A stretch of DNA of 64,000 bases, taken from the NCBI RefSeq assembly GCF_028553885.1, contig NZ_CP067169.1, positions 949,501 to 1,013,500 of the forward strand. Direction: 5' to 3'. The stretch's first letter is position 1; each line of letters starts with the position of its first letter. The notes below the pieces were generated by a model, which had not been told where the DNA came from, searched no databases, and was given only the letters and a program-made list of their open reading frames with translations. The translations under genes were made by a program, and so were the position numbers. Shown here piece after piece: positions 5,943 through 25,618 of this stretch. This DNA is from Paracoccus aestuarii (GTDB taxonomy: Bacteria; Pseudomonadota; Alphaproteobacteria; Rhodobacterales; Rhodobacteraceae).

Positions 5943-6980
5943 TCAGACCACCAGAAACCGGCTGACGTCCTCAGGATGAAGCTGATCCTTCAAGGCCGCC
6001 CGAAGCGCATGGAGGCCGAAGGCCCGGAGATCGTCGTTGTGATCGCCGCGTACTGGCGTCAGCCCGACCACCTCGATCCCGGCCTCGAAGGCTCTGGCGA
6101 CCAAGCTGTCCCGCGCGCCGATCCCGGCCGGGTCGCGGTCGTGGATAACATAGAGCCGGCGCAACGCCTCCGGGAACAGGATGGCGGAGAGATGTCCCGC
6201 CGAAAGCGCCGACATCGCCGGCAGGAAGGGCAGGGCCGAGCGAACCGACAGCACGGTCTCAATCCCCTCTCCCGCAGCGAGAACGTCACCCGAGCGACCA
6301 AAACGCACCCCATGGCCGAGCAGATCGCCCATCGCCCGCCGCGGCGTTTCGACAGGCGCCTTGCCGCGACCGTCCGGGGCGAGCCAGGTGCGATGCGCGC
6401 CGGTCTGATGGTCGGCCAGGTCGGTGACGGATGCGATCAGCGCCGCCCAGATCTCGGTGGGACCCCGGTCCGGGCTATAGTAGCACCGCGGGTGGAATCG
6501 CAGAGCGGCGGTATCGTGCAAAGCCGTGATGCCGCGTCCGCGCAGATACGTTTCCGCAAGTGTCCCGGTGATCGGCTGCGACATGGCGAAGAGGCGCCGC
6601 GACGCCTCGGTCGAGCCCGACGGCGCTGGGATCGCATGCCACCTTCGGGGTTCGACCTCCGGCAGGGGATGCGGGAAGCTCAGAAAGCGGCGCGCTTCCT
6701 CCGCGACGTCCTTGAAATCCACGAGGCGCAAGGATTCGCGGATGACGTCGAGCATGTCACCATGCTGGCCCGTGGCTGCGTCGGTCCATTTACCAGCCGC
6801 GCCCCTGCCGCGTTCGGGCCCGGTGAGGCGGACGAACATCGATCGGCCCGGCGTGTTGTGCACGTCACCGACAAGCCAGTAGCGACCAGCTTTCTGCCCG
6901 GAGGACAGATAGTGGCGGCAAACCGCCTCGGCCACCTGGCCGAGACGGATCGCCAGTTCGGTGGCCTCGTGACGCAGCAT
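5943..6980 (-). CDS. Toprim-domain protein, plasmid primase/TraC-like
   Basis: The protein has 345 residues. The N-terminal half carries YWLVGDVHNTPGRSMFVRL and KWTDAATGQHGDMLDVIRES, as in DUF7146/zinc-ribbon-type primase-like proteins. A Toprim domain follows, with the glutamate in AGEGIETVLSV (about residue 236) and the metal-binding DRDPAG (about 280). Toprim proteins of this kind are thought to prime DNA synthesis during replication or after conjugal entry. Its ATG overlaps the TGA of the helicase gene (ATGA), so the two are translationally coupled. Confidence 0.85.
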   Translation of the reverse strand: MLRHEATELAIRLGQVAEAVCRHYLSSGQKAGRYWLVGDVHNTPGRSMFVRLTGPERGRGAAGKWTDAATGQHGDMLDVIRESLRLVDFKDVAEEARRFLSFPHPLPEVEPRRWHAIPAPSGSTEASRRLFAMSQPITGTLAETYLRGRGITALHDTAALRFHPRCYYSPDRGPTEIWAALIASVTDLADHQTGAHRTWLAPDGRGKAPVETPRRAMGDLLGHGVRFGRSGDVLAAGEGIETVLSVRSALPFLPAMSALSAGHLSAILFPEALRRLYVIHDRDPAGIGARDSLVARAFEAGIEVVGLTPVRGDHNDDLRAFGLHALRAALKDQLHPEDVSRFLVV

Positions 6981-9900
6981 CAGGCGGCCTCCCGCTCGCT
7001 GACGCGGGCGACCGGCCAACGGTCGAGGAGCTTGCCAAGAACCTCGACTCCGCTGGAGTCTGCGGGAACGAACATCCTCAGCTTCCAGGAGATGATCTCG
7101 TGGAAGAGGCCATAGGCTGTGAGGCGCTGGCGCATCGTGTCGGTGAAGCCGGACAATTCGATGCGCGAGGCGCCCATCACCCGGACCCGGCGCAATTGCA
7201 GACCTTCGGCGAGATCGAGGATCGTGCGCCCGTCCATGAGTGCGGTGAAGGCGTCTGTTGCTGTTAGAGAAGGCTTCTCGGTGGCGGTGGCGTTCGCGAC
7301 CCATGCAGGGGACACGCGGCGGCCGATGATCCTCTCCCCCGCGTCGGTCTGGAGCCGATAGACTCGTGTCGACTCGTTGGGCAGGCGCTTCCAGATCGGC
7401 AGCAGCAAGCCCGTGACGACATGGATGGTGCTGTCGGAAAATTCCGGCACCTCGGTGACCTCGGCATTCCATGCGGGCGCGAAGGCGTCCCGGTCTGCCG
7501 CGATCCAATGGGTGTCGCCCATCATTCTGATCGGGACGTTCTGAGCTTCCATCGGTCGGACCAGACGGACGCGCCGCTCGATCTCGCCGTCGTCGAGCAT
7601 GACGCTGCTGGTCGGGATCTGGACAGCCGCGCGGCCAGACCGCTCGTTGATCAGCAGCAGGGAGCGCGGATCGTCAAGCTGAGCCAGTGCCGCTTCAAGC
7701 TTCAGTGGACGGTTGCGCTCGCGCTGGGTGATCGTGAGCAGCCGGGTTTCGGCGCTCGTGCCCGGATGCGTATAGATCACCTTCCGGTCGGCGACGATGA
7801 AGGACTCGGCGCGCAACGTCTCGAGGCCGAGGTCATAGGTGCCGGCTGCGATCGCCCCTTCGATCTTAGCCGTCAGCAACTGCTCGAAGGCGGTGAAGAG
7901 GAGACCCTGAAGCTCGATGGTCAGTGCGAGCATGCGATTGAGAAAGGTGGTGATGCCCGGCAACTCGTCCTTGATGCCATTCGAGTCCATCAGTTTCAGG
8001 CCGGTGGCTTCCTCGAAGCGTTCCAGCGAGCAGCCTTCGACCCGCCCCCGCACCAGCAGGAGATAGAGCTGGCGCAAGGCATCGCGGGCATAGAAGCTCT
8101 CCAGATTGTCCTCGGGGCGGAACAGCCCCTGGCCACCCGTCTGCCTCTGTCCCCGCGTGATCGCGCCGAGCGTGTCGAGACGCCGGGCGATCGTGCTGAG
8201 GAAGCGCTTCTCGGCTTTCACGTCGGTCGAGATCGGCCGGAAGAGGGGTGGCTGTGCCTGATTGGTGCGGTTGGTTCGGCCAAGGCCCTGAATCGCGGCA
8301 TCCGCCTTCCAACCCGGCTCCAACAGGTAGTGGACGCGGAGGCGCTGGTTTCGCGCCGAGAGTTCGGCGTGATAGCTGCGCCCGGTGCCGCCGGCGTCCG
8401 AGAAGACAAGAACTCGCTTCTGGTCGTCCATGAAGGCCTGGGTCTCGGCGAGATTTGCCGCACCAGCGCGGGTCTCGACGACAAGCCGGTCGGCTGTCGT
8501 GCCGGAGCCGCGCTTGCGGATGATGCGGCGGGACCGGCCCGTGACTTCGGCGACCATCTCGGTCCCGAATTGCTGGATCAACTGGTCGAGCGCACCGGGG
8601 ACGGGCGGCAGGCTTGCCAGCTTCGCGATCAGGTCATCGCGGCGGGCGACGGCCTCGCGGCTCTCGACCGGCTGGCCATCGCGAAAAACCGGCCGCGAGG
8701 TCGTGTTGCCCTCGCTGTCTGTGAAGGGCTCGTAGAGTTGCACAGGGAACGAATGGGCGAGGTAGTCCAGGACATACTCGCGGGGCGTGATGTCTACGCG
8801 GATGTCGGCCCACTCCTCGGTCGGCAGTTCAGCGAGCCGGCGTTCCATCAAGGCTTCGCCTGTCGAGACGATCTGGACCACGGCCGCATGTCCGTCGTCC
8901 AGATCGCGGGCGATGGAGCGGATCAGGGTCGGCGTCTTCATGCTGGTCAAGAGATGGCCGAAGAAGCGTTGCTTGGTGCTTTCGAAGGCGCTCCGAGCGG
9001 CGGACTTGGCCTGCCTGTTCAAGGTGCCGCTGTCGCCGGTGATATTGGCAGCCTGCATGGCGGCGTCGAGGTTGTTGTGAATGATCGCAAAAGCCCCGGC
9101 GTAGGCATCGTAGATGCGACGCTGTTCGTCGGTCAGCTGGTGCTCGACCAGCTCGTATTCGACACCGTCGTAGGAGAGCGACCGGGCGCTGTAGAGACCG
9201 AGCGAGCGCAGGTCGCGCGCCAGGACCTCCATGGCCGCAACGCCGCCAGCTTCGATGGCCTCGACGAACTCGGCACGGGTGGCGAACGGAAAGTCCTCAG
9301 CACCCCAGAGGCCCAGCCTTTGCGCGTAGGCAAGGTTGTGGACCGTCGTCGCGCCGGTGGCCGAGACGTAGACGACGCGGGCATCCGGCACGGCGTGCTG
9401 CAGGCGAAGGCCCGCACGGCCCTGCTGCGAGGCGGCGACGTCGCCGCGTTCTCCCTTTCCACCAGCGGCATTGGCCATAGCATGGCTTTCGTCGAAAATG
9501 ATCACTCCATCGAAGTCGGAGCCCAACCATTCGACGATTTGCCTGACCCGCGAAACCCTTTCGCCGCGATCGTCAGACCGTAGCGTAGCATAGGTAAGAA
9601 AAAGGATACCCTCCGCGAGCGTGATCGGCTTGCCTTGGGGGAATCGTGAGAGCGGCGTGACCAGCAGGCGTTCCATCCCGAGAGCCGACCAGTCGCGTTG
9701 GGCATCCTCGATCAGCTTGTCCGACTTGCTGATCCAGACAGCCTTGCGGCGCCCGCGCATCCAGCTGTCGAGGATGATGCCGGCGGACTGGCGGCCCTTG
9801 CCGGCGCCGGTGCCGTCGCCGAGGAAGTAGCCGCGGCGGAAGCGGACGGCACCTGCTGCGCCTTCGGAGGCGGCGGCGAGGGTGTCGAAGGTCTCATCCA

Positions 9901-11323
9901 CGGTCCAGGCCCCGGCGATGTGGTCGGAATGGGCCTCGCCGGCATAGATCACGGTTTCGAGTTGCGCGTCGGAGAGGTGCTCGCAGATGTCAGCGGGCAG
10001 GCGTGGCCGATAGCTCGGCTTCGGCGGTGCGACCGAGGCCATGGCCGTCGACTGGACAAGCTTGGTCGGATGCGGCTGCGCGCCGGGAATACGGATCGCC
10101 TGCAATCCGTATTCCTCATAAATCGCATCCGTGAGCCGGGCCGCGCCCTCCACAGGTTTCCAGTCGAGCGTCTCATAGACGAGCTCGATGCCCTCTGGAT
10201 CGGAGGTGCCGGCAGACCGGGCTGCCGGGCCGGCGGCACGAGCCAGATAGCCGCGCACGGAACGTGGCGCGGCAACCGGAACGGCGACGGCGGGATCGAC
10301 AGGCTGGCGCGGCGGGACATGTTCGGTGATCCAGCTAATCAGCGTCGCGACATCCGGCGCGATGCCGGGGCTGGCGGGGAAGTGCTCCGGGTGGTCGGCG
10401 GGCAGCTTGTCGATCACCATCAGGCGCGTGTCGATCGTCGTGCCATGTTTCGCATAGACCGCCCCATCGATCGCGGCGGAGAAGACAATGCGGCCGCGCT
10501 CCTGAAGCCGCCGGAAATGCCGATCCCAGGTCGGGTTTTCCGGGTTGAAGCTCGCGCCGGTGATGGTCACGAGACGCCCGCCGGGCGCGAGCCGCGCCAG
10601 CGCCGAAGCGACATGGCGGAAGGCGGCATCGGCAACGCGCCCCTGGACATTCGCCAGGACCGAAAAGGGCGGGTTCATCAGGATGACGGAGGGCACCACC
10701 GGGAGATCGAGGTGATCGTCGATCTGTGCGGCATCGAAGCGCGACACGGTGACGCCCGGAAAAAGAAGGTCGAGGAGGCCGGCGCGCATGTCGGCCAGTT
10801 CGTTGAGGATCAGTCTGCCACCCGCGATTTCGGCGAGGATGGCGAGCAGTCCCGTCCCGGCGGAAGGTTCGAGGACACGATCCGCGGCCGTGATCGCCGC
10901 GGCCGTGGCGGCGGCGAAGGCGAGGGGAGCAGGGGTCGAGAACTGCTGGTAGCTCTGCATTTCCTCCGAGCGGCGGGTCTGCGTCGGCAGGAGGGAGACG
11001 ATCCTGGCGAGCAGGGGGAGCGCCGCTGCCGGAGACCCGGCTTTACGGATCAGCGTCTTTCCGTATTTGCGCAGCATGAGAACCATGACGGCTTCGCAGG
11101 CTTCGTAGGCCGCCTTCCAGTCCCAGGCGCCGGTGGTGTCGGAGGCGCCGAAGGCGGTTTCCATAGCCTGGCGCAGCAAGGTCGCGTCGATGCGCTGGCC
11201 TTTCTCAAGATGCGGAAGAATGAGCCCGGCGGCAGCAAAGACGGCGGCGGCGGTCTCGGCGTCACGGGCGAGCGAAAGCGGCGCGGTGGCGGATTCCGCC
11301 GCGGATGCGGAAATCATGTTCAT
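6980..11323 (-). CDS. Giant Strawberry-notch-type helicase with methylase domain
   Basis: The protein has 1447 residues. An N-terminal methyltransferase-like region shows LEPSAGTGLLAILAE (about residue 157) and the N6-type motif NPPF (about 217). A superfamily 2 helicase follows, with GTGAGKGRQSAGII (Walker A, about 506), IIFDESHAM (Walker B, about 611), and GLGRTNRTNQ (motif VI, about 1016). This is the architecture of Strawberry-notch-like proteins on alphaproteobacterial conjugative elements, proposed to unwind and modify or protect element DNA. I chose ATG (MNMISASAAES), which follows a GAGGA site; the frame runs further upstream but is not coding. A hairpin with an AGAGAG loop lies in its leader. 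Confidence 0.9.
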   Translation of the reverse strand: MNMISASAAESATAPLSLARDAETAAAVFAAAGLILPHLEKGQRIDATLLRQAMETAFGASDTTGAWDWKAAYEACEAVMVLMLRKYGKTLIRKAGSPAAALPLLARIVSLLPTQTRRSEEMQSYQQFSTPAPLAFAAATAAAITAADRVLEPSAGTGLLAILAEIAGGRLILNELADMRAGLLDLLFPGVTVSRFDAAQIDDHLDLPVVPSVILMNPPFSVLANVQGRVADAAFRHVASALARLAPGGRLVTITGASFNPENPTWDRHFRRLQERGRIVFSAAIDGAVYAKHGTTIDTRLMVIDKLPADHPEHFPASPGIAPDVATLISWITEHVPPRQPVDPAVAVPVAAPRSVRGYLARAAGPAARSAGTSDPEGIELVYETLDWKPVEGAARLTDAIYEEYGLQAIRIPGAQPHPTKLVQSTAMASVAPPKPSYRPRLPADICEHLSDAQLETVIYAGEAHSDHIAGAWTVDETFDTLAAASEGAAGAVRFRRGYFLGDGTGAGKGRQSAGIILDSWMRGRRKAVWISKSDKLIEDAQRDWSALGMERLLVTPLSRFPQGKPITLAEGILFLTYATLRSDDRGERVSRVRQIVEWLGSDFDGVIIFDESHAMANAAGGKGERGDVAASQQGRAGLRLQHAVPDARVVYVSATGATTVHNLAYAQRLGLWGAEDFPFATRAEFVEAIEAGGVAAMEVLARDLRSLGLYSARSLSYDGVEYELVEHQLTDEQRRIYDAYAGAFAIIHNNLDAAMQAANITGDSGTLNRQAKSAARSAFESTKQRFFGHLLTSMKTPTLIRSIARDLDDGHAAVVQIVSTGEALMERRLAELPTEEWADIRVDITPREYVLDYLAHSFPVQLYEPFTDSEGNTTSRPVFRDGQPVESREAVARRDDLIAKLASLPPVPGALDQLIQQFGTEMVAEVTGRSRRIIRKRGSGTTADRLVVETRAGAANLAETQAFMDDQKRVLVFSDAGGTGRSYHAELSARNQRLRVHYLLEPGWKADAAIQGLGRTNRTNQAQPPLFRPISTDVKAEKRFLSTIARRLDTLGAITRGQRQTGGQGLFRPEDNLESFYARDALRQLYLLLVRGRVEGCSLERFEEATGLKLMDSNGIKDELPGITTFLNRMLALTIELQGLLFTAFEQLLTAKIEGAIAAGTYDLGLETLRAESFIVADRKVIYTHPGTSAETRLLTITQRERNRPLKLEAALAQLDDPRSLLLINERSGRAAVQIPTSSVMLDDGEIERRVRLVRPMEAQNVPIRMMGDTHWIAADRDAFAPAWNAEVTEVPEFSDSTIHVVTGLLLPIWKRLPNESTRVYRLQTDAGERIIGRRVSPAWVANATATEKPSLTATDAFTALMDGRTILDLAEGLQLRRVRVMGASRIELSGFTDTMRQRLTAYGLFHEIISWKLRMFVPADSSGVEVLGKLLDRWPVARVSEREAA

Positions 11324-11352
11324 CGGGGAGTCCTCGGTTGAGTTCTGGGAAT

Positions 11353-11388
11353 GGACTCCGCACGGCGCTCTCTCCGCCGCACGGATCC
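11353..11388 (-). ncRNA. 5'-leader hairpin of the helicase gene (AGAGAG loop)
   Basis: In the transcript of the helicase gene, GGATCCGTGCGGCG pairs with CGCCGTGCGGAGTCC (with G-U pairs and one bulge) around a GAGAGAG loop, about 30 bases before the start codon. Three other leaders in this block have the same kind of loop. Confidence 0.5.
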
Positions 11389-11477
11389 GCGCCCTCCCCA
11401 GCCCATCTCTCGCTCTCGGGCGAGGACTGCCAGGGAGGGGAACGCGCCCCGACCTCAGGCCGGGACCCATCAAGCAG

Positions 11478-11900
11478 TCAGTCGATGGCCTGGAAGATCT
11501 CCGCCGCCTCCGGGTGATCGGTGGCGTAGTCGTAGAGGCGGCCATAGCCTTCCGCGAGTTCGTCGTCATCGTAGCGGAAGGAGAGATGCGAGAAGGCGAA
11601 GAGCGTGGCGATGATCCCGGCAGCATCCGCCGAAACCTCGCCCTCGAAGCCGTTGCCTTCGCAGAAGAGGCGGTAGCGGGGCTTCGAGGTCGGCACGAGA
11701 TAGAGCGGTTGACCGGCGCGTTCGTAGAAATCCCAGAGGCCGCCGCCGTAGTCGCCGGGGCTGAGGGTCTCCATGAAGCGGAAGACGGTGTGCTCGCCGA
11801 TGATGAGCAGGTGCAGGCCGAAGAGACGCGGCAGGAAGTCCATGCGGCGGTCCTCGGGGACGCGGGTTGCGGATTGGGAAGCAAGTTCGGGCAGGGCCAT
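11478..11900 (-). CDS. ardB: ArdB/KlcA-family antirestriction protein
   Basis: The protein has 140 residues, the usual family length. The family signature is clear: MDFLPRLFGLHLLIIGEHTV, FMETLSPGDYGGGLWDFYE, and SADAAGIIATLFAFSHLSF. ArdB/KlcA proteins inhibit type I restriction without mimicking DNA and protect mobile elements on entry. A GGAGA ribosome site precedes the ATG. The leader carries a hairpin with an AGAGAG loop, like the neighbouring helicase gene. The island carries a second, unrelated antirestriction gene, ardC. Confidence 0.9.
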   Translation of the reverse strand: MALPELASQSATRVPEDRRMDFLPRLFGLHLLIIGEHTVFRFMETLSPGDYGGGLWDFYERAGQPLYLVPTSKPRYRLFCEGNGFEGEVSADAAGIIATLFAFSHLSFRYDDDELAEGYGRLYDYATDHPEAAEIFQAID

Positions 11901-11932
11901 GATCGGTCTCCGGGAGGGGAAAGGGACACCAG

Positions 11933-11960
11933 CCGGACGACCCTCTCTCAGCCCGTCCGG
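11933..11960 (-). ncRNA. 5'-leader hairpin of the ardB gene (GAGAGAG loop)
   Basis: CCGGACG pairs with CGTCCGG around a purine-rich loop containing GAGAGAGG in the mRNA, about 30 bases upstream of the ardB start. Confidence 0.5.
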
Positions 11961-12064
11961 AGGCGCCCCCTCCCGGCCCTCCTCTCGCTCTCTTCGGGCT
12001 TGAACTGGACCATTCCATGGTCCATCTTCAGCATGAGAGCGGATGGCACTTGGAGCGATGTGCG

Positions 12065-15317: not shown

Positions 15318-15863
15318 TCATGCGGCGAGAAGCACGGCCGCGTGGGCCGTCGCGCGCCAGAATGGATCGACCAGGCGTCCCTCGAGCACGCTGGCCCGGA
15401 AGCGCAGCCGATGCGCGGCGATCTGATTGTTCCGGCCTGCCTCGAAAGCCGCACCGGCGCGGATCCCGCTCGCTTTCTGGACCACCAGCCGGGCCTCGCC
15501 ATCGGAAATGACGGGCGGGCACCAGCTGACGCTCCGTGCATGGACCTTGCCTGCGAGGGCGAGACATTTCTCGTCATCCTGAATGACGATCAGCTTTGCA
15601 ACGAAGCCGCTGGCGTCTTCGGGGAGGTCCGCGATGGCGTCGTCCTCGATACGGGTTTCGGCATGGACGATGGCCTCTTCCAGGCAGGTAGTCCGGGTGA
15701 GGATTGCCATCTGCTCGATGGAATAGCCTCCATGGGCAAGTCCGCCCCCGAATTCGAGATCGCCGAGGCATGAGACCAACAGCGGAAATCTGCTGGCCTT
15801 GGCGAGACCGGAAACCACCTGTGCGACCATCGTGGTGGTCGAAATGGGCACGACGTTCTTCAT
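15318..15863 (-). CDS. Hypothetical island protein with structured leader
   Basis: The protein has 181 residues and begins MKNVVPISTTTMVAQVVSGL. No domain is recognised. A stretch reads HAETRIEDDAIADLPEDASG; the end is alanine-rich. Its 5' leader carries the double hairpin shared with the parB and ardC leaders (see that entry), so these three transcripts may share a regulator. It is the first gene of a run of minus-strand accessory genes. Confidence 0.6.
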   Translation of the reverse strand: MKNVVPISTTTMVAQVVSGLAKASRFPLLVSCLGDLEFGGGLAHGGYSIEQMAILTRTTCLEEAIVHAETRIEDDAIADLPEDASGFVAKLIVIQDDEKCLALAGKVHARSVSWCPPVISDGEARLVVQKASGIRAGAAFEAGRNNQIAAHRLRFRASVLEGRLVDPFWRATAHAAVLLAA

Positions 15864-15875
15864 CGGGTATCTCCA

Positions 15876-15918
15876 CGACGGGCGCCGGGGGACTCTCCCC
15901 CAGCCCTGAACCCGTCAC
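15876..15918 (-). ncRNA. Double-stem leader RNA upstream of the 181-residue gene
   Basis: In the transcript, GTGACGGG pairs with CCCGTCG as an outer stem and GGGGGA pairs with TCCCCC as an inner stem. The outer stem ends a few bases before GGAGA, the ribosome site. The same plan, with a different but still paired inner stem, precedes parB and ardC. Confidence 0.6.
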
Positions 15919-16092
15919 GAAGAACCCGACCCTCCTCTTCCTCTGACCTTGATCTTCAGGAAATACTCCGCCGCCGCACCTTCAACGGCCTGATATACGC
16001 GCATCCGGATCTACGATTTTCCGGCTTTCTACTTGGTTGTCTGGGCGCAAAACCATGAATACTCTGCGTTGCATCGCAATCACGAGGGTCCA
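15919..16092. other. Divergent promoter region
   Basis: About 170 bp between the accessory operon (leftward) and the H-NS-like gene (rightward). It is less GC-rich than its surroundings near 16005-16080 and must hold promoters for both, but I could not fix a consensus. Confidence 0.4.
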
Positions 16093-17078: not shown

Positions 17079-17561
17079 TCAGAACTCGTGGCTGTAGTAT
17101 TCGCTGCTGGTGAAGCGCTCGTTGTAGTCGAGCGAGATGCTTCGCGTGGCGACGTCGAAGGTGAACTCGCCAAAGGCACCGTCGTTGTTTTCCCAGCCAC
17201 CATGGGTTTCGGCCAAGAGGTCGTAGGCGAATTGCTCGATGGCAGCTTCGACGCACATCGTGCTGCGCTTGATCTTGTCGGACCCCCAGACGGGGGAGCA
17301 GATCGCGATCTCGGCCTCAGGAAGATCGGCCACCTCGCCGCCGGCGCGGGCGTCGATCTCCTCGACCTGGCCGCTGTCACCGCTGCCATCGAAGGTCACG
17401 ATGACCTGGGTGATGCCGGCGGCGGCCAGCGTATCGAAGAGCGCCGCTTTGTTGGCCCGGCGCGGTGCCTCGGCGCGAAGGTTGTGCTCCGCCTGCTCGG
17501 CGAAGTGGCGGGCGACGATCGCATTGATGTCGATCACCTGGGGATCGGGTTTGTCGGTCAT
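17079..17561 (-). CDS. DUF6878-family protein
   Basis: The protein has 160 residues. It begins MTDKPDPQVIDINAIVARHF and has the conserved core ALFDTLAAAGITQVIVTFDG with SGDSGQVEEI, then QFAYDLLAETHGGWENNDGA and FGEFTFDVATRSISLDYNER. I recall this as DUF6878, common on conjugative islands and of unknown function. Its leader has an 8-bp stem around an AGAGAG loop, as found upstream of the helicase and ardB genes. Confidence 0.75.
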   Translation of the reverse strand: MTDKPDPQVIDINAIVARHFAEQAEHNLRAEAPRRANKAALFDTLAAAGITQVIVTFDGSGDSGQVEEIDARAGGEVADLPEAEIAICSPVWGSDKIKRSTMCVEAAIEQFAYDLLAETHGGWENNDGAFGEFTFDVATRSISLDYNERFTSSEYYSHEF

Positions 17562-17589
17562 GAGAGGTCTCCGGGAGAGCTGGAAGGAC

Positions 17590-17624
17590 GAACCGGGCGG
17601 CGCTCTCTCTGCCCATCCCGGTTC
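17590..17624 (-). ncRNA. 5'-leader hairpin of the DUF6878 gene (AGAGAG loop)
   Basis: GAACCGGG pairs perfectly with CCCGGTTC around a loop containing AGAGAGAG in the mRNA, about 30 bases upstream of the ATG. Confidence 0.55.
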
Positions 17625-17673
17625 GCCCTCACCCGCCCCCTCTCTGCCTCTGGGGCCGAGCGGGCGGGCACGC

Positions 17674-18444
17674 TCAGATCATGGCCGCGCCTGGTACCGG
17701 GTCCTCGGCCTCGCCGTCTTCATCGACGCAGGGCTCTCCATAGATTTCCGCGTAGAGCTCGGGCGTCGGGGTGATGCTTTCGATGTCATAGATTCCGCAG
17801 GAGATTTCCGCCCGGTAGGCGAAGAGCCAGCCTTCGTCAAAGCCCTGGATATCGATGCGAAGGTCTTCGCATTCCGGGTGATCGGCGAGGGCAGCGAAGA
17901 CCGGCTCCGGCGGCGACCAGGCCGTGTCGAAACGGAATTCGAGCCGGCCCTCGCGCTCCTCAATCACCTCGAAAGAATAGGCGTTCCATTTGGTACCCCA
18001 GTTGCTGATCGACCAGGAATACCAGGAGGCATGGCCGCATTCCTCATAGGCCCTGATCGCGATCTCGGCCTTGGCGACGCAACCCGGATCACGTTGGGTC
18101 AGCAGGGTCTTGAGACTCTCATAGTCGGTGACGCCAACCTCTTGCACCCAGGGCAAGCCGAGATAGCGAGCCACCTCGGCCTCGATCGAGGGGGTTCCGA
18201 AGCCATCCTTTATGATCTCGGGACGACCGAGCACCAGAAGGCCCATGCTGACGGCGGTGCTGCTTTCGGTCTGCTCGAGGATCGTCGGACGCGGAATGAT
18301 GCGATTGAAGTCGAAGCGGGTGAAAGGATGCTCCTTTCCGTCTTCATCGGCTTCGACATTCTCGACGAGAAACGCGGCGCGGAAAGCCGCGATGGCTGCG
18401 GACGGGCCGGTCACGACGACCCGGTTGGTGACATGGTTGGGCAT
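17674..18444 (-). CDS. Api92-like / DUF1281-type protein
   Basis: The protein has 256 residues. The start MPNHVTNRVVVTGPSAAIAA and the segment FDFNRIIPRPTILEQ, followed later by WYSWSISNWGTKWNAYSFEV and FDTAWSPPEPVFAALA, are signatures of the Api92-like (DUF1281) family with a ferredoxin-like fold. These proteins occur on conjugative plasmids, phages and ICEs; their function is unknown. The leader holds a short stem around an AGAGAG loop, matching other genes in this block. Confidence 0.82.
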   Translation of the reverse strand: MPNHVTNRVVVTGPSAAIAAFRAAFLVENVEADEDGKEHPFTRFDFNRIIPRPTILEQTESSTAVSMGLLVLGRPEIIKDGFGTPSIEAEVARYLGLPWVQEVGVTDYESLKTLLTQRDPGCVAKAEIAIRAYEECGHASWYSWSISNWGTKWNAYSFEVIEEREGRLEFRFDTAWSPPEPVFAALADHPECEDLRIDIQGFDEGWLFAYRAEISCGIYDIESITPTPELYAEIYGEPCVDEDGEAEDPVPGAAMI

Positions 18445-18475
18445 GGAAGGTCTCCCGAGCGCCGGTATGGGAAGC

Positions 18476-18506
18476 CCGGGCTGGCGGCGCTCTCTGCACG
18501 GCCCGG
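18476..18506 (-). ncRNA. 5'-leader hairpin of the Api92-like gene (AGAGAG loop)
   Basis: A 6-bp stem (CCGGGC with GCCCGG) encloses a loop with AGAGAGCG in the mRNA, about 30 bases before the start. It is weaker than the other members of the set. Confidence 0.4.
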
Positions 18507-18669
18507 ACCACCCGGTCCCGGCCGATCTCTCCCTCTTCACCGCGCGCAGCGTGGCGCACATCCATCGTCATCCCCGACGGGATGGCATGCCTCCGGAGAG
18601 GCGCGGGGCGGCGAGACGGAAACGGCCCGGGCGCAAGCCGGGCCGTCGGGGTGAGGCGCTTCTCGCGCC

Positions 18670-18834
18670 TCAGCCGAAGGGATCGAGCTCCAGCTTCACC
18701 ATCTCCTCGTCTCCGTCGAACTCGTCGGCGGGCATGGCGCCGTGGGTGCCATCCCCGGCCTGAAACACGATGATCGAGACCATCAAGGTGGTGGCGAGGC
18801 TGGCGGCGAAGGCGGTGGCATCTGCGTAGGACAT
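18670..18834 (-). CDS. Small island protein with one hydrophobic segment
   Basis: The protein has 54 residues: MSYADATAFAASLATTLMVS, then IIVFQAGDGTHGAMPADEFD and a short acidic end. The first half could be a transmembrane helix. A GC-rich hairpin (GCGGGGG/CCCCCGC) and an AGGAG site stand directly upstream, the same gene-start design as its neighbours, which supports that it is translated. The function is unknown. Confidence 0.5.
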   Translation of the reverse strand: MSYADATAFAASLATTLMVSIIVFQAGDGTHGAMPADEFDGDEEMVKLELDPFG

Positions 18835-19257
18835 CGGTTCCGGCTCCTGTTTTGGGAGGCGGGGGACCATCCCCCGCGCGACAGGCGCCCGAAGTGTCCG
18901 ACCGGATCTGCAATCACCCTCGGGCGTTCGGACTCTTTCCGAATCCCCGAGGGCGGCACGCTCGCGTAAGCCGACCCCTTGCGGGTTGATTGACGAAGAG
19001 ACGGTCGGACCAAGGTTCGCGAATGGAAGCGGGGGTGGTGTTTTGCCTCCGACAGGGGCCGGAAGCCCGTCGCAGATGCTCCGCCGCGCCAGCCTCGTTG
19101 CCGGGCAGGTTCCAGGACGTGTTTCAGGCCGGGGACGGAACCCGCTGCATCGTGACGACGAAAGGGTGACGCAATGGTGAAGCTGGATCTCGTTCCATCG
19201 CTGCGTGAGCAGCGATCCCCGGCGGCCCCGGTGTGCAGGCACAGCTTTGAGGGCCGG
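18835..19257. other. Intergenic region with no recognised gene
   Basis: About 420 bp. Besides the hairpin at 18859-18877 that belongs to the small gene's leader, I see no coding frame or repeat that I trust. Confidence 0.4.
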
Positions 19258-20539: not shown

Positions 20540-22693
20540 TCACTCGGCGGCGACGAGAGCGGCCGGATCGCCGGCGGTCTCGGGGGCGGCCTCCTCGTCG
20601 TCGGCGGCGAGGAAGTCGGGCAGCGCCACACCATCCTCGTCCTGATCGGTCGCGCCATCCACGGCCTGCGCTTCGATGGTGGAGCGCAGCGGTTCCGGCA
20701 GCCAGCCGGTATCGGCCAGAAGCCGTTCGGCCTCCTTCGCCATGTCGCCCTTCTTGAGATGTGCGATGAGATCGGCGGCACGATCTCCGGCACCTTCGCG
20801 CACCGCTTCGAGGATGCGGGTCTTGGTCACGCGGCCGAGATAGTTTTCCACCGTGGGTTTCCAGCCCGCTTCGACGAGATCGAGGCAGGTGGCCTGTGCG
20901 AGCCGTTCGGCCTCGGCCATGCGGCGGTCGAGACCGTGCTGCGAGATGCCATTCCCCGAATAGGGGTTGGGCCGCTCGTAGAGCGCGTTAACGCCGAAGC
21001 TGACGCAATGGGCGAGCAGCGCCAGGCGGCTGGCATCGTCGAGACCGTCGATCCAGCCCCAGAGCCGGTCGTCATCACCGGAGGGGATGTCGCCCCGCCA
21101 GGCGTCCGCGCGCTCGTCGATCATCTTCGCGGCGGCACTGTCCGCGAGCCCGGTCGCGTCAGTGGGGAGATAGATGTGACGCACCGCGGCGTAGAGGCTG
21201 GTTCCCGAGGTGGAGGTGCGCTCGAAGGTGTCGAGGACCAGCTTGTGCAGCAGGGCCGTCATGGCAACATGCGGATTCTCGGCAAACGCATTGCGCAGCG
21301 CGAGCGTCCGCCAGGCGGTCAGGTCCGTCACCAGCCGCTCGGGAAGCGGCTTGACGGCATCGTCCTCCTCCTCGTCTGCGTCCGGAACCGGCTCGCCGCC
21401 GACGGTGATGACGGCGCGCTGCACGGCATCAGGATCGGACGGGTCGGCACCTTCGCCGGCATCCTCGCCATCGTCGGTCTCGGGGTGTTCGTCCTCGGGG
21501 CGAACATAGCCGCTGCTGATGATCAACTCGCCCTCGCGGCCGATGCTGACGAAGACGCCGGCACGGGCGATGTCTTCCGGTGCGAAGGTGGTGGGTCGTT
21601 CCTCGAAGGCGTCCAGCTCGGCTTCGATTTCGGCGAGCCGCTGATCGACCTCATCGGGCAGGTCTTCGGTTTCGGCATACTTCGCTTCGAGTTCGTCATA
21701 CTCGTCGCGCAGCGCCTCGCGGGCGGCGCGCTCCTCGTCGGTCAGCTCCTGGGTCACGCCGACCAGCCTGCGCAGGCCGTTGGTGTGGCCGTAGGGCAGC
21801 TCGACCGCCGCGTCGATCCACTTCCAGCCCTGACCGGCGATCTCGTCTGCGACGGTGCGCAGCTTCTCGTCGACCAAACGGTCGAGGAGCGTGACGTCCT
21901 GCAACCAGCCGCCGTTCTCGTCGGAGAAGAGATCGCGCAGCACCGGGCCGCCCGCCGCCTCATAGGCTTCGACACCGATGAAACGGGCGCGCTTGTCGGC
22001 GGCGGGAACCGTGGTCTCGGTCAGCAGGCCACGGATCTGCCAGGGCTCTTTCTGCCACGACGTGCTGATGCGCTCCCAGACCTGTTGCTGGCGCTCGTGA
22101 TCGGGGTTGACCGTGAAGGCTTCCAGCATCGCCAGGGTCATCTCGTTGCGCGCATAGGCGTCGTGCAGCGTCGGCGCGACGGTGGCGAGGCGAAGACGCT
22201 GCATGATGTAGCGCGGTGTGGTCCGCCAGGCATCGGCGATCTCCTCCTTCGACATGCCCATGTCGAACATGCGCTTGAACGCCTTGAACTGGTCGAGCGG
22301 ATGCAGGGCGAGGCGCAGCAGGTTCTCGGCCAGCGAGTCGTCGACGGCCGAGGTCTTGGCGTCGGCCTTCTTGACGATGCAGGGCACGAGCCCTTCGGCC
22401 GGGAAGCGACCGGCTTCCACGAGGCGCGCGATGGACCTGTAGCGGCGGCCGCCCGCCGGGGTCTCGAAATCGCCGGTCTCGTTGCCGTCCTCGTCGAGGA
22501 TGGCGCGGACATTGAGGCCCTGCACGAGATCCTCGCGCCGGTCGATGTCATGGGTGAGTTCGTCCAGACCGGCCTCGATGTCGATCTCGCGGACATTGCT
22601 GTCCGACAGCCTGATCCGGTTGAACGGAATGTCCCGCGCCCGCGAAAAGACGATCATCGGGACAGCGGGTTTCTTCTTGGCAGCTTTGGCCAT
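20540..22693 (-). CDS. parB: Large ParB/RepB/Spo0J-family partition protein
   Basis: The protein has 717 residues, far longer than chromosomal ParB (about 300). The N-terminal ParB domain includes DIPFNRIRLSDSNVREIDIE, the CTP-binding-type motif ETPAGGRRYRSIARL, and AENLLRLALHPLDQFKAFKR. A helix-turn-helix follows (SKEEIADAWRTTPRYIMQRL). The acidic middle (DEYDELEAKYAETEDLPDEV) and long C-terminal extension are typical of the island-borne versions. It should segregate the element or act as a nucleoid-like regulator. Its leader carries the double-stem RNA shared with ardC. Confidence 0.88.
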   Translation of the reverse strand: MAKAAKKKPAVPMIVFSRARDIPFNRIRLSDSNVREIDIEAGLDELTHDIDRREDLVQGLNVRAILDEDGNETGDFETPAGGRRYRSIARLVEAGRFPAEGLVPCIVKKADAKTSAVDDSLAENLLRLALHPLDQFKAFKRMFDMGMSKEEIADAWRTTPRYIMQRLRLATVAPTLHDAYARNEMTLAMLEAFTVNPDHERQQQVWERISTSWQKEPWQIRGLLTETTVPAADKRARFIGVEAYEAAGGPVLRDLFSDENGGWLQDVTLLDRLVDEKLRTVADEIAGQGWKWIDAAVELPYGHTNGLRRLVGVTQELTDEERAAREALRDEYDELEAKYAETEDLPDEVDQRLAEIEAELDAFEERPTTFAPEDIARAGVFVSIGREGELIISSGYVRPEDEHPETDDGEDAGEGADPSDPDAVQRAVITVGGEPVPDADEEEDDAVKPLPERLVTDLTAWRTLALRNAFAENPHVAMTALLHKLVLDTFERTSTSGTSLYAAVRHIYLPTDATGLADSAAAKMIDERADAWRGDIPSGDDDRLWGWIDGLDDASRLALLAHCVSFGVNALYERPNPYSGNGISQHGLDRRMAEAERLAQATCLDLVEAGWKPTVENYLGRVTKTRILEAVREGAGDRAADLIAHLKKGDMAKEAERLLADTGWLPEPLRSTIEAQAVDGATDQDEDGVALPDFLAADDEEAAPETAGDPAALVAAE

Positions 22694-22706
22694 CGTGGTA
22701 TCTCCG

Positions 22707-22749
22707 CGACGGGCGCCGAGAGCCTCTCTCTCGACCCTAAACCCGTCAC
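22707..22749 (-). ncRNA. Double-stem leader RNA upstream of parB
   Basis: Outer stem GTGACGGG with CCCGTCG, inner stem CGAGAG with CTCTCG, then GGAGATACC before the ATG. Compared with the ardC and 181-residue leaders the inner stem differs in sequence but keeps pairing. Confidence 0.6.
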
Positions 22750-22855
22750 GAAGCGAAGCGCCGCCCTCTCACTCTAGGAGGGCAGCGCCACGGAGCCGGA
22801 GAACCGGAAACCCGCGTGACCGGCGACGGCCAGAAACAGGCGAGCCGGCACGCTT

Positions 22856-23269
22856 CTAGGGCGCGTCTGGCTCAGGAAGATCGGGCTCGCCGTCGCGGAA
22901 GCGAGCTGGAATCTCGTCCTCCGGTCCTTTCCAGACGACGCGGTTGCCGACCCAGATGGTGACGAAGCCACGCCCCCTGGGTGCCGGCTTTGGCGGCGCC
23001 GGCTCGAAGTTGCGGCAACTGAAATTCCCCGCCGTCCCCGAGAAGGCGGGAATCTTGCTGTTGCCGAGAAGCACGCGGTCGCAGAAGCCGGTCGGGCGCT
23101 TGACGCGGCGGCGGGAAAGGCCGAGCCGGAACGCCTCATAGTCGCGCTCCAGGCCATCGGGCGGCGGCGTCCAATGGCGGCAGTCGCGGCAGCGGCCCGG
23201 TCGGTCGGATGCGGGGTCGTCGAGCGGCGGGCCGGCATTGTGGCCCGGCGGAGCAGGTCGGTCGCTCAT
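22856..23269 (-). CDS. Hypothetical protein with a Cys-rich motif
   Basis: The protein has 137 residues. After a Pro-rich start it has CRDCRHWTPPPDG, further cysteines in PTGFCDRVLLGNSK and GNFSCRNFEPAPP, and a short C-terminal beta part (GFVTIWVGNRVVWKGPED). The four cysteines could bind a metal, such as zinc. Its ATG overlaps the previous gene's stop by four bases, so it is translated as part of that operon (ardC, DUF2958, 258-residue gene, this one). I know no function. Confidence 0.65.
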   Translation of the reverse strand: MSDRPAPPGHNAGPPLDDPASDRPGRCRDCRHWTPPPDGLERDYEAFRLGLSRRRVKRPTGFCDRVLLGNSKIPAFSGTAGNFSCRNFEPAPPKPAPRGRGFVTIWVGNRVVWKGPEDEIPARFRDGEPDLPEPDAP

Positions 23270-24042
23270 GGCTCATCTCCCGCCCGTGCGCGCAAGCGAC
23301 GGGCGACGCGCGAGACGAGGACCGGCCGCGTGTCGGCCGCCTGGGCGAGCCTTTCGATGGTGGCTAGGTCCGCGTCCGGGCAATCGCCCGTCACCTCGAT
23401 CTCGACGTAATGCCCGCCGCTGCCGATCTTGGAATCGCGCAGCCGGTGGCCCGACGAGGTGTAGAAGCTCTCGTGCCGCTCGATGAGACGGACGCGCGAG
23501 CGCAGGAAGAGAAGGCCCGAGCCGAGATTGCCGCAGAACAGGAACTCGTCGGCTTCCGTGGCCTTCGGCCCGCCGCCGATCTTGCGGTGGCCGATCTGGC
23601 GGAAGGCCGCGTCGAAGCTCGACGGGTCGGGTGTGATCCGCGCCTGCGTCGCCGCATGGAAAACCCACGGCGGCCGGTGCGGGTCGAGCCGGCCGACCGC
23701 GATCTGATGCAGGAAATCGGCAAAGCTCGCCGGGTCCGCCGGATAAGGACAGGTCCACCAGACTTTTCGGATCGTCTGGCGCAGCTCGTCGGGGAAGGAG
23801 AAGAGCCGCGCGCGCCCCCGACGCCACCAGGCCGCGCGTTCCCTGCGCCGGTCGCGTTCCAGTTCGTCCCACCACACCACGCGGCGGGCCATTTCCTCCT
23901 CGACGCCGTGCTGGCCGGCAGCAATCTGGTCGGCGAAAAGGGGCAGCGCCTCCCGTTCGAGGCGCTGCTTGCGGTGGAATGCCGCGCGCTTGCGCGACGT
24001 GTCCCGGTAGGGCTCGGGCCTGTGCCAGCGACGGAAGCGCAT
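23266..24042 (-). CDS. Hypothetical protein of the ardC operon
   Basis: The protein has 258 residues and starts MRFRRWHRPEPYRDTSRKRA. The first third is basic and helical (QRLEREALPLFADQIAAGQH, EEEMARRVVWWDELERDRRR). The rest has HQIAVGRLDPHRPPWVFHAA and EADEFLFCGNLGSGLLFLRS. The ATG overlaps the stop of the DUF2958 gene (ATGA), and its own stop overlaps the next gene, so this is a tight operon. I know relatives only as hypothetical proteins on such islands. Confidence 0.65.
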   Translation of the reverse strand: MRFRRWHRPEPYRDTSRKRAAFHRKQRLEREALPLFADQIAAGQHGVEEEMARRVVWWDELERDRRRERAAWWRRGRARLFSFPDELRQTIRKVWWTCPYPADPASFADFLHQIAVGRLDPHRPPWVFHAATQARITPDPSSFDAAFRQIGHRKIGGGPKATEADEFLFCGNLGSGLLFLRSRVRLIERHESFYTSSGHRLRDSKIGSGGHYVEIEVTGDCPDADLATIERLAQAADTRPVLVSRVARRLRARAGDEP

Positions 24043-24413
24043 CACACACCCTCCCATCGCGACTGCCGCGCCGTGCGGATGATCCGCTCGGCCGCCCGGA
24101 TGCTGCCTGCCTCGCGCGCGGCTTCCGCCCAGATCGAGATCGGGAAATCGCCGGTGAACAGGATGTCGCGCTCGATGCCCATGCCGAACGGCAGCCGCAG
24201 AGAGGACAGGTCCTCCAGCGAGAAGCTGCCAGGCTCGGGATAGCCGATGTCGGCCAAGCCGAACATTATGTCGCCATCCTCGTCCAATTCGGTGGCGAGC
24301 CAGACGCCCGCGCCGAAGGGATTGAAGAACTTCACGACGGGGACATGATCAACGTCGCGCTGGCGTCCATTGACGAGAAGCTGCGCGCGCAGTTCGTCGG
24401 TCAGGAGGATCAT
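24042..24413 (-). CDS. DUF2958-family protein
   Basis: The protein has 123 residues and begins MILLTDELRAQLLVNGRQRD, with PVVKFFNPFGAGVWLATELD, EDGDIMFGLADIGYPEPGSF and ERDILFTGDFPISIWAEAAR. This is the DUF2958 family, small proteins almost always found beside antirestriction or partition genes on plasmids and ICEs. The activity is unknown. It overlaps ardC upstream and the 258-residue gene downstream by four bases each. Confidence 0.9.
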   Translation of the reverse strand: MILLTDELRAQLLVNGRQRDVDHVPVVKFFNPFGAGVWLATELDEDGDIMFGLADIGYPEPGSFSLEDLSSLRLPFGMGIERDILFTGDFPISIWAEAAREAGSIRAAERIIRTARQSRWEGV

Positions 24414-25378
24414 GCCGCCCTCCTGTCGATCTCGACCGCGCCGGTATCGGTATCGTCGGTTTCGCCGGTATCCGGCAGGAAGGCGAGCAGCCAGTCGGCC
24501 GCCTTGCTGGCCTGGGAGGCTGCGCGCACGATGGCGCGGTTGTCCTCGCGCAGCACCTCCAGCCAGGAGCCGATATAGTCGGCATGGCGGACGGTCGGCA
24601 CGATGCCGAGCGACGCGCAGCAGAAGGCGGCGGTGATCTCGGCCACCAGTTCCTCGAAAGCGTATTTCTTCGTGCCGAAGGAGCCGGAGAAGTCACGGGC
24701 AAGGCGCGATGGATGGCCCGTCGCGTGGCCCATCTCGTGCAGCGCCGTCCGGTGCCAGTTGATCGGCTCGAAATAGGCTTGCGGCGGCGGCACCATCACG
24801 AAGTCCTGCGACGGGACATAGAAGGCGCGATTGCCGCCGATGCGGAAGTCGATGCCGGTGGCCCGGATCAGCGCCTCGACCTGCGGCTCGATCAGGCCCG
24901 GCGGGGGCGGCGGTGCGACGGTGGCGATCTCCTCGGGCAGTCCCTCGCATTGGGCGGCATTGAAGACCGTGAAGCGTTTCAGGAACGGGATTTTCCCCGG
25001 CTCCTCGCCGGTCTCACGGGCACGGCGCTTCTCATCCTCAGGCGTGAAGCGGTCGGCATAGACGACAGTGGTGCCGCGTTCGCCCTTGCGCACATTGCCG
25101 CCGAGGGCGGCTGCCTGGCGGTAGGTGAGCCAGCCCTGGCCGGGGAAGCCATGCTGGATCACCGCGCCCCAGAGGATCAGGATGTTGATGCCGCTATAGG
25201 CGCGGGAGGTAGCGGCGTTCCTCGGCAGGCCGAGCGGGGCCTGCGCCGTGGACGAGCCCCAGGGCTGGACCCAGGGAAACTGCCCGGCCTCCAGCTCGGC
25301 GATGATCTTGCCGGTGATTTCGTCGTAAAGGTTCGCCCGGTCCGAGGCCGGGGGCGCGCTGCGATCTTGTCTGGACAT
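24410..25378 (-). CDS. ardC: ArdC-family antirestriction protein
   Basis: The protein has 322 residues. The N-terminal single-strand DNA-binding domain has DEITGKIIAELEAGQFPWVQ, PRNAATSRAYSGINILILWG, GWLTYRQAAALGGNVRKGER, and GTTVVYADRFTPEDE. The C-terminal zincin-like metallopeptidase domain has the HEMGHATGHPSRLARD motif (about residue 216) and YAFEELVAEITAAFC. ArdC coats incoming single-stranded DNA and protects it from restriction during conjugation. It is the first gene of a four-gene operon, and its leader carries the double-stem RNA. Confidence 0.92.
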   Translation of the reverse strand: MSRQDRSAPPASDRANLYDEITGKIIAELEAGQFPWVQPWGSSTAQAPLGLPRNAATSRAYSGINILILWGAVIQHGFPGQGWLTYRQAAALGGNVRKGERGTTVVYADRFTPEDEKRRARETGEEPGKIPFLKRFTVFNAAQCEGLPEEIATVAPPPPPGLIEPQVEALIRATGIDFRIGGNRAFYVPSQDFVMVPPPQAYFEPINWHRTALHEMGHATGHPSRLARDFSGSFGTKKYAFEELVAEITAAFCCASLGIVPTVRHADYIGSWLEVLREDNRAIVRAASQASKAADWLLAFLPDTGETDDTDTGAVEIDRRAA

Positions 25379-25390
25379 CGCGGTTCTCCG

Positions 25391-25432
25391 CGACGGGTGC
25401 CGGAGACCCTTCTCCAGCCCTCAACCCGTCAC
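25391..25432 (-). ncRNA. Double-stem leader RNA upstream of ardC
   Basis: Outer stem GTGACGGGT with ACCCGTCG (one G-U pair beyond), inner stem GGAGA with TCTCC, then CGGAGA close to the ATG. A CTAGAGTGAGAG box lies upstream, shared almost exactly with the parB leader. Confidence 0.6.
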
Positions 25433-25618
25433 GGCGAACCCGTCCGCACTCTCACTCTAGAAGGGGGCGTTGCGGGGTCTCCCCGCAGAAGGGGGTGCGC
25501 CGGCAACGAAGTGCCGGCCAGGGGGAAGACCTTCCCCTTCACTCTTCGCATGACTTTCGTTTGATAAACTGTTCAAGTCGCCCGGATCTTGATCGGCACC
25601 TCCAGCTAAAGGCATGTC

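Follow-up and report, generated by a model that had tools for sequence, protein, structure and literature searches.

A conserved two-stem RNA leader at the start codons of anti-restriction and ParB-like genes on plasmids and ICEs of Alphaproteobacteria

Introduction

The radC RNA motif is a structured RNA of Proteobacteria that lies in the 5′ UTRs of DNA-related genes, for example radC and anti-restriction genes. The STAXI motif, likewise a structured element, is found close to genes for SSB, antirestriction, topoisomerase and integrase (PMC2864571), and the Frpo/ssi elements of F and ColIb-P9 are hairpins that precede anti-restriction and other leading-region genes (PMC11541004). In Bacillus, the establishment-gene regulatory sequence EGeRS1 of plasmid pLS20 is 400-750 bp long, with many repeats. 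It is rich in inverted repeats and recurs directly in front of the ribosome site in several operons, that of ardC among them; it has no evident promoter, and RNA folding is possible (PMC8708921).

Here we analyse a stretch of 64,000 nucleotides of Paracoccus aestuarii (NZ_CP067169.1, positions 949,501 to 1,013,500; hereafter the window), in which leaders precede ardC, a parB-like gene and a gene for a protein of 181 residues. Like EGeRS1, the leader is one conserved sequence next to the ribosome-binding site of several establishment operons including ardC, but EGeRS1 belongs to Gram-positive plasmids and takes up 400-750 bp, whereas the leader has about 90 nt, two stems and an AGAG box. EGeRS1 is its nearest functional parallel, by analogy only. 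STAXI elements consist of tandem pseudoknots with UUCG loops, while the leaders have neither tandem repetition nor an Rfam match. Frpo/ssi elements, in contrast to the leader, which is kept paired as coding-strand RNA, fold in transferred single-stranded DNA and carry -35/-10 boxes. The radC RNA was rejected, its model (RF01754, 149 positions) scoring at best 16.9 bits in the whole genome against a cut-off of 40, with no hit at the leaders. Rfam 15 returned only tRNAs at gathering threshold across the whole window, nothing at the leaders in its 10-30 kb part at E up to 10, and no leader match at gathering score in 20 other leader loci at E up to 1. No paper describing an RNA before these genes was found in a search that was thin on subscription journals. 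A sequence-only reading of this DNA had named no described RNA family of this kind on ICEs, and with no Rfam match, the radC RNA rejected and no paper found we consider the leader undescribed as an RNA family.

Results

Three leaders of one type in the window

The exact stem pattern GTGACGGGTTNAGGG-N14..24-CCCGTCG has three matches in the window, where 0.00 are expected from shuffles, and three in total in the 3.7-Mb genome. All lie on the minus strand, at 25391-25432, 22707-22749 and 15876-15918, exactly where the sequence-only reading had placed its three leaders, and each leader runs up to the start codon of its gene. These leaders, which we call type I, follow one plan of about 90 nt in the direction of the gene: a AGAGNGAGAG box, and then an outer stem GTGACGGG/CCCGTCRY around an inner stem that is free in sequence and closed by a purine loop, mostly AGAGG.

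The ardC leader (25376..25463, minus strand) is a complete 90-position match, from box to start codon, to a covariance model built on 30 copies (R1; 88.3 bits, E 1.5e-22). It is composed of a AGAGTGAGAG box (25449..25458), an outer stem GTGACGGG/CCCGTCGC with the inner hairpin GCTGGAGA-AGGG-TCTCCGGC (25390..25432), a GGAG (25386-25389) and the start codon (25376-25378) of ardC (322 aa, 24410..25378, minus strand; Pfam ArdcN PF08401, E 7.5e-43; MPTase-PolyVal PF18818, E 4.2e-51). The second leader (22691..22780, minus strand; R1 95.9 bits, E 1.1e-24), also with a AGAGTGAGAG box (22766..22775), precedes a gene for a ParB-like protein of 717 aa (20540..22693, minus strand), which TIGR00180 matches as a domain with E 1e-8, below its curated cut-offs. 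The third (15861..15949, minus strand; R1 87 bits, E 3.3e-22) stands before the gene of the 181-aa protein (15318..15863, minus strand), which belongs to a family with 17 copies behind the leader in our sample and has no Pfam, NCBIfam or PDB match. A box had been noticed in only two of these cases; it precedes all three, the third being a variant, AGAGGAAGAG, at 15944-15935 on the minus strand.

Other elements were observed around these units. Three tandem hairpins adjoin the ardC box upstream (25471-25537, minus strand): GGGGAAGGTCTTCCCC, GCCGGCA..TGCCGGC and TGCGGGGAGACCCCGCA, followed by ACGCCCC. There are 63 distinct copies of this element elsewhere, mostly preceding ardC or DUF932 leaders, and in some loci (L269, L172, L210, L119) it occurs without a leader box; by eye, the middle hairpin varies in sequence and keeps its pairing. 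It is a separate conserved element, possibly a promoter or a single-strand signal. On the minus strand, a strong terminator-like hairpin and T-run follow both parB (hairpin at 20484-20464) and the next gene (hairpin at 19938-19913), which suggests that the units are transcribed separately. Downstream of parB, at about 18670-18900 on the minus strand, there is possibly a conserved, acidic small protein of 54 aa (MSYADATAFAASLATTLMVSIIVFQAGDGTHG...); several plasmids have annotated 54-aa genes at the matching place (L013 16155-16319, L019 8237-8401, L020 24531-24695), whose sequences were not aligned.

Both stems covary

RNAalifold proposed two stems from the sequence alignment. In 150 aligned copies 98.2% of the cells were paired and 12 of the 16 pairs had undergone double changes; double-change cells amounted to 158 against 44 in shuffles, and pairing fell to 33-49% when the partner was shifted by 1-3 columns. 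As this first alignment had been fitted to the model, the covariation test was repeated on a structure-blind MAFFT alignment, against a tree-based null in which both columns of a pair were simulated independently on a FastTree tree with their own substitution numbers (300 simulations). The outer stem yielded 11 compensatory events (null 0.8, at most 4 in the 300 simulations) and the inner stem 22 (null 2.5, at most 9), that is, 33 compensatory double changes for both stems together where about 3 are expected. Total pairing was higher than in every simulation, for the outer and the inner stem alike, and outer-stem variants such as GACGGA/TCCGTC, GACGAG/CTCGTC and GGCGGG/CCCGCC are still paired. 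The compensatory change that had been read from three copies therefore passed the test on a larger alignment: covariation is unprovable from three copies alone and provable from 150, and the fold, as judged from these alignments, is conserved by evolution.

A plain all-pairs covariation scan under the tree null scored the stem pairs best, yet with E ≥ 1, as the null is dominated by hypervariable columns of the flanks; the named-pair tests were used instead. A small third hairpin (GGC..GCC), lying between the box and the outer stem, was considered and rejected, since its complementary letters do not covary.

The coding strand is folded as RNA

A G-U pair on the coding strand corresponds to A-C on the opposite strand, and the imperfect pairs can hence tell which strand folds. 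Among non-Watson-Crick cells we counted 307 G-U and 34 A-C on the coding strand, and of the 91 changes away from a Watson-Crick pair 74 led to G-U and 17 to A-C. That the imperfect pairs are G-U rather than A-C indicates that the coding-strand RNA folds, and not template single-stranded DNA or a DNA palindrome; on this comparative evidence, it is as RNA that the coding-strand sequence is under selection.

Inverted repeats near start codons are common operators, and the stems could be an inverted repeat in double-stranded DNA bound by a repressor dimer. A DNA palindrome would however be equally tolerant of G-T and A-C, against the 74 and 17 observed, and the inner arms vary freely while their pairing is kept, so that we find an operator scarcely tenable. 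The same counts bear on a single-stranded DNA promoter of the Frpo/ssi type, a hairpin in the incoming strand that lets the host RNA polymerase transcribe establishment genes before second-strand synthesis. The gene set, anti-restriction and ParB-like, would fit such a promoter, the genes face a DUF3363 relaxase wherever both share a contig, and Frpo-like elements stand before leading-region genes of other plasmids (PMC11541004). Yet transcription uses the template strand, on which G-U is A-C, and 74 of the 91 changes went to G-U. Neither the template-strand fold nor the -35/-10 within the hairpin that mark Frpo/ssi elements is found: no -35/-10 was detected at the leaders, and the one promoter-like site in 15 kb lies elsewhere. 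Moreover, the stem is locked to the Shine-Dalgarno (SD) site and the start codon, and a promoter at this place would give an mRNA with hardly any 5′ UTR. A promoter of this kind is in our opinion very improbable.

The structure abuts the ribosome site

Because model R1 includes the SD site and the ATG, position was tested on sites found by the stem pattern only, avoiding circularity. A GGAG and a start codon follow at 114 of 114 distinct sites of this kind, and a AGAGNGAGAG box with at most one mismatch lies upstream of 111 (shuffled control, 0), at 15-18 nt from the stem nearly throughout, with two outliers at 21 and 23 nt. Of the 143 sites scored, 138 have GGAG 2 nt behind CCCGTC, at the end of the last two pairs, and in 147 of 148 the distance from SD to ATG is 7-9 nt. 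The ribosome site GGAGA had been placed right behind the outer stem; it does adjoin the final two pairs of the stem, but starts 2 nt past CCCGTC. With covarying stems at a fixed spot before the start codons of related genes, the element has, as far as sequence can show, the features of a structured cis-regulatory RNA leader.

In ViennaRNA predictions GGAG is unpaired with a mean probability of 0.17 in the leader; the value is 0.48 when the upstream part is shuffled, and 0.32 at the GGAG sites of 303 other genes of the same loci. Most of the site is predicted to pair with the two letters that precede GTGACGGG; in the majority of copies these read YC, and they are able to pair with GG in 141 and 144 of 149. 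This extension does not covary in the MAFFT alignment test (p 0.17), being conserved without covariation because the SD site itself cannot vary. With the 5′ arm broken in silico, GGAG accessibility rose from 0.17 to 0.35, and compensation of the mutation brought it back to 0.17. The lower stem is thus predicted, in the absence of any measurement, to bury the SD site and to leave the leader closed by default.

The structure might instead aid translation, as a ribosome standby site or by protecting the mRNA from decay, without switch or factor. Such a role would suit the purine-rich, SD-like sequence of box and loop, the near invariance of GGAG and the fixed distance at which the stem abuts the SD site. 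Predicted SD accessibility is however below that of controls, not above it, and the box is specific in sequence at a near-fixed distance (111/114), more than a general purine tract needs. We regard a mere aid as unlikely, although it has to be reckoned with.

A signal at the level of transcription, that is, antitermination or attenuation by a nut/put-like box and hairpin in the nascent RNA, must also be considered. The architecture of nut sites resembles box plus hairpin. Terminator-like hairpins do stand between units, as at 20484-20464 on the minus strand, and EGeRS1 of pLS20 blocks read-through (PMC8708921). Against this, no terminator-like site or U-run was found after the stem at the leaders, which fail the definition of an intrinsic terminator or attenuator as a GC stem with a U-run; the fixed SD and ATG spacing would be left unexplained; and a copy per gene instead of per operon is unusual for nut/put. 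We hold this signal to be improbable. No sigma-70 promoter and no hexamers are shared upstream of the box, so that the transcription start and the presence of the box in the mRNA remain undetermined.

Divergent leaders in the same window

The window has more than three leaders. An unfiltered scan with the covariance model found divergent relatives (type II) before an antirestriction and a DUF6878 gene and weaker ones before a helicase and an Api92-like gene, and a scan for the box likewise added the latter two to the type II set. The leader of the KlcA/ArdB-type antirestriction gene (11898..11998, minus strand; R1 22.1 bits, E 0.0005) has a box AGAGCGAGAG, a long hairpin with a GAGAGAG loop and an SD site abutting the stem, and precedes a protein of 140 aa (11478..11900, minus strand; PF03230, E 4.5e-39). 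That of DUF6878 (17559..17656, minus strand; R1 18.6 bits, E 0.004), with box AGAGGCAGAG and loop AGAGAGAG, precedes a protein of 160 aa (17079..17561, minus strand; PF21798, E 6.3e-56). The helicase leader (11321..11416, minus strand) carries box AGAGCGAGAG and a GAGAGAG-loop hairpin, and has homologous leaders in other loci; its gene codes for a strawberry-notch type helicase (6980..11323, minus strand; Pfam AAA_34, E 2.1e-118; Helicase_C_4, E 2.1e-97), whose start was set at the leader-proximal ATG. A possible leader of the Api92-like (DUF1281_C) gene (18442..18541, minus strand; R1 13.4 bits), with a box AGAGGGAGAG 92 nt before the ATG, is not significant alone (E 0.12). Controls in which the box was permuted overlapped with the repetitive box, which inflated them, and they were left out of the evidence.

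Type II leaders have in common a AGAGNNAGAG box, a long variable hairpin and a GAGAGAG loop. Nineteen helicase leaders, including that of the window, share the box, an AGAGAG loop and a long hairpin with variable arms; in 16 of them RNAalifold found 6 pairs with double changes and paired the box with CTCTC just before the SD site. The link between both types is one of box, loop and position and does not amount to homology; their stem sequences are unrelated.

Distribution and downstream genes

BLAST searches with the ardC and parB leaders hit 124 and 105 plasmid records, respectively, and all organisms listed were Alphaproteobacteria. Of 293 genomes from the order of the window, 77 (49 of 113 genera) had a match to R1. 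The figures were 34 of 387 in a sample of the class Alphaproteobacteria and 31 of 299 in a phylum sample, where all matches fell within the class (the share of sampled genomes outside the class is not given). The exact stem pattern was matched by at least 120 stretches in a scan of 84,980 species genomes; among the matches listed, titles were alphaproteobacterial or unassigned proteobacterial, with the exception of Verrucomicrobia bacterium LP2A. No match was found in the phages searched. In LP2A (L223), whose genome is labelled Verrucomicrobiota, a type I leader has both stems intact, which suggests an element transferred out of Alphaproteobacteria or a mislabelled contig.

The proteins downstream of 150 model matches fall into four families, ParB-like (64), ArdC (38), DUF932 (27) and the 181-aa family (17), which includes the gene of the window; there are also three single genes. 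A type I leader of 57.7 bits was also observed on plasmid pEJ01 (L013 21885-21972), before the hypothetical gene next after radC.

The genes of the window point toward a DUF3363 relaxase 6 kb outside it. In the class sample, leader and DUF3363 relaxase occur together in 20 genomes where 3 are expected (Fisher p 8e-16), and comparison of coordinates showed that, when both share a contig, the relaxase is always downstream and co-directional. Fourteen leader-bearing genomes have no DUF3363 relaxase and some copies lie near repABC genes, which implies that the RNA is not tied to a single type of element. The sequence-only reading had assigned the leaders to ICEs, which proved too narrow, since plasmids across Alphaproteobacteria, of the repABC type and others, carry them too.

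Discussion

Our preferred reading is that the leader is a cis-regulatory RNA that gates translation and is common to the genes, each under separate control, of an establishment (anti-restriction) regulon of plasmids and ICEs. We put its probability at roughly 0.6, in the absence of transcript, probing or reporter data. Gating itself is plausible and unproved, resting on position and on predicted occlusion of the SD site. The lower stem would extend into the SD site, where YC pairs with GG, and keep translation low by default. The leaders would share a trans-acting factor, still unidentified and either a protein or an RNA. It would read two purine motifs, the box in single-stranded form and the loop of the hairpin, and thereby shift the ribosome site between closed and open. 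The ardC, parB-like, DUF932 and 181-aa genes may in this manner be switched jointly at translation, probably along with the type II genes (helicase, KlcA, DUF6878), and the trigger could plausibly be the element entering or leaving the cell.

More tentative is the extension by which types I and II form one post-transcriptional establishment regulon, in which two RNA architectures with unrelated stems carry one bipartite signal of AGAGNGAGAG box and GAGAGAG loop and a single, undiscovered trans-acting factor switches anti-defence and establishment genes of alphaproteobacterial ICEs and plasmids on and off together; we consider it possible, with the odds somewhat against it. The genes behind the leader probably serve the settling of mobile DNA in a new cell.

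The timing of anti-restriction genes in newly arrived plasmids and ICEs is understood for few models only. The leader marks such genes by sequence alone in many Alphaproteobacteria, from symbionts to soil, marine and clinical species, and is hence a handle for listing unknown establishment and anti-defence genes, with the DUF932, DUF6878 and 181-aa families as candidates. It also represents a concrete, putative regulatory switch that is open to testing.
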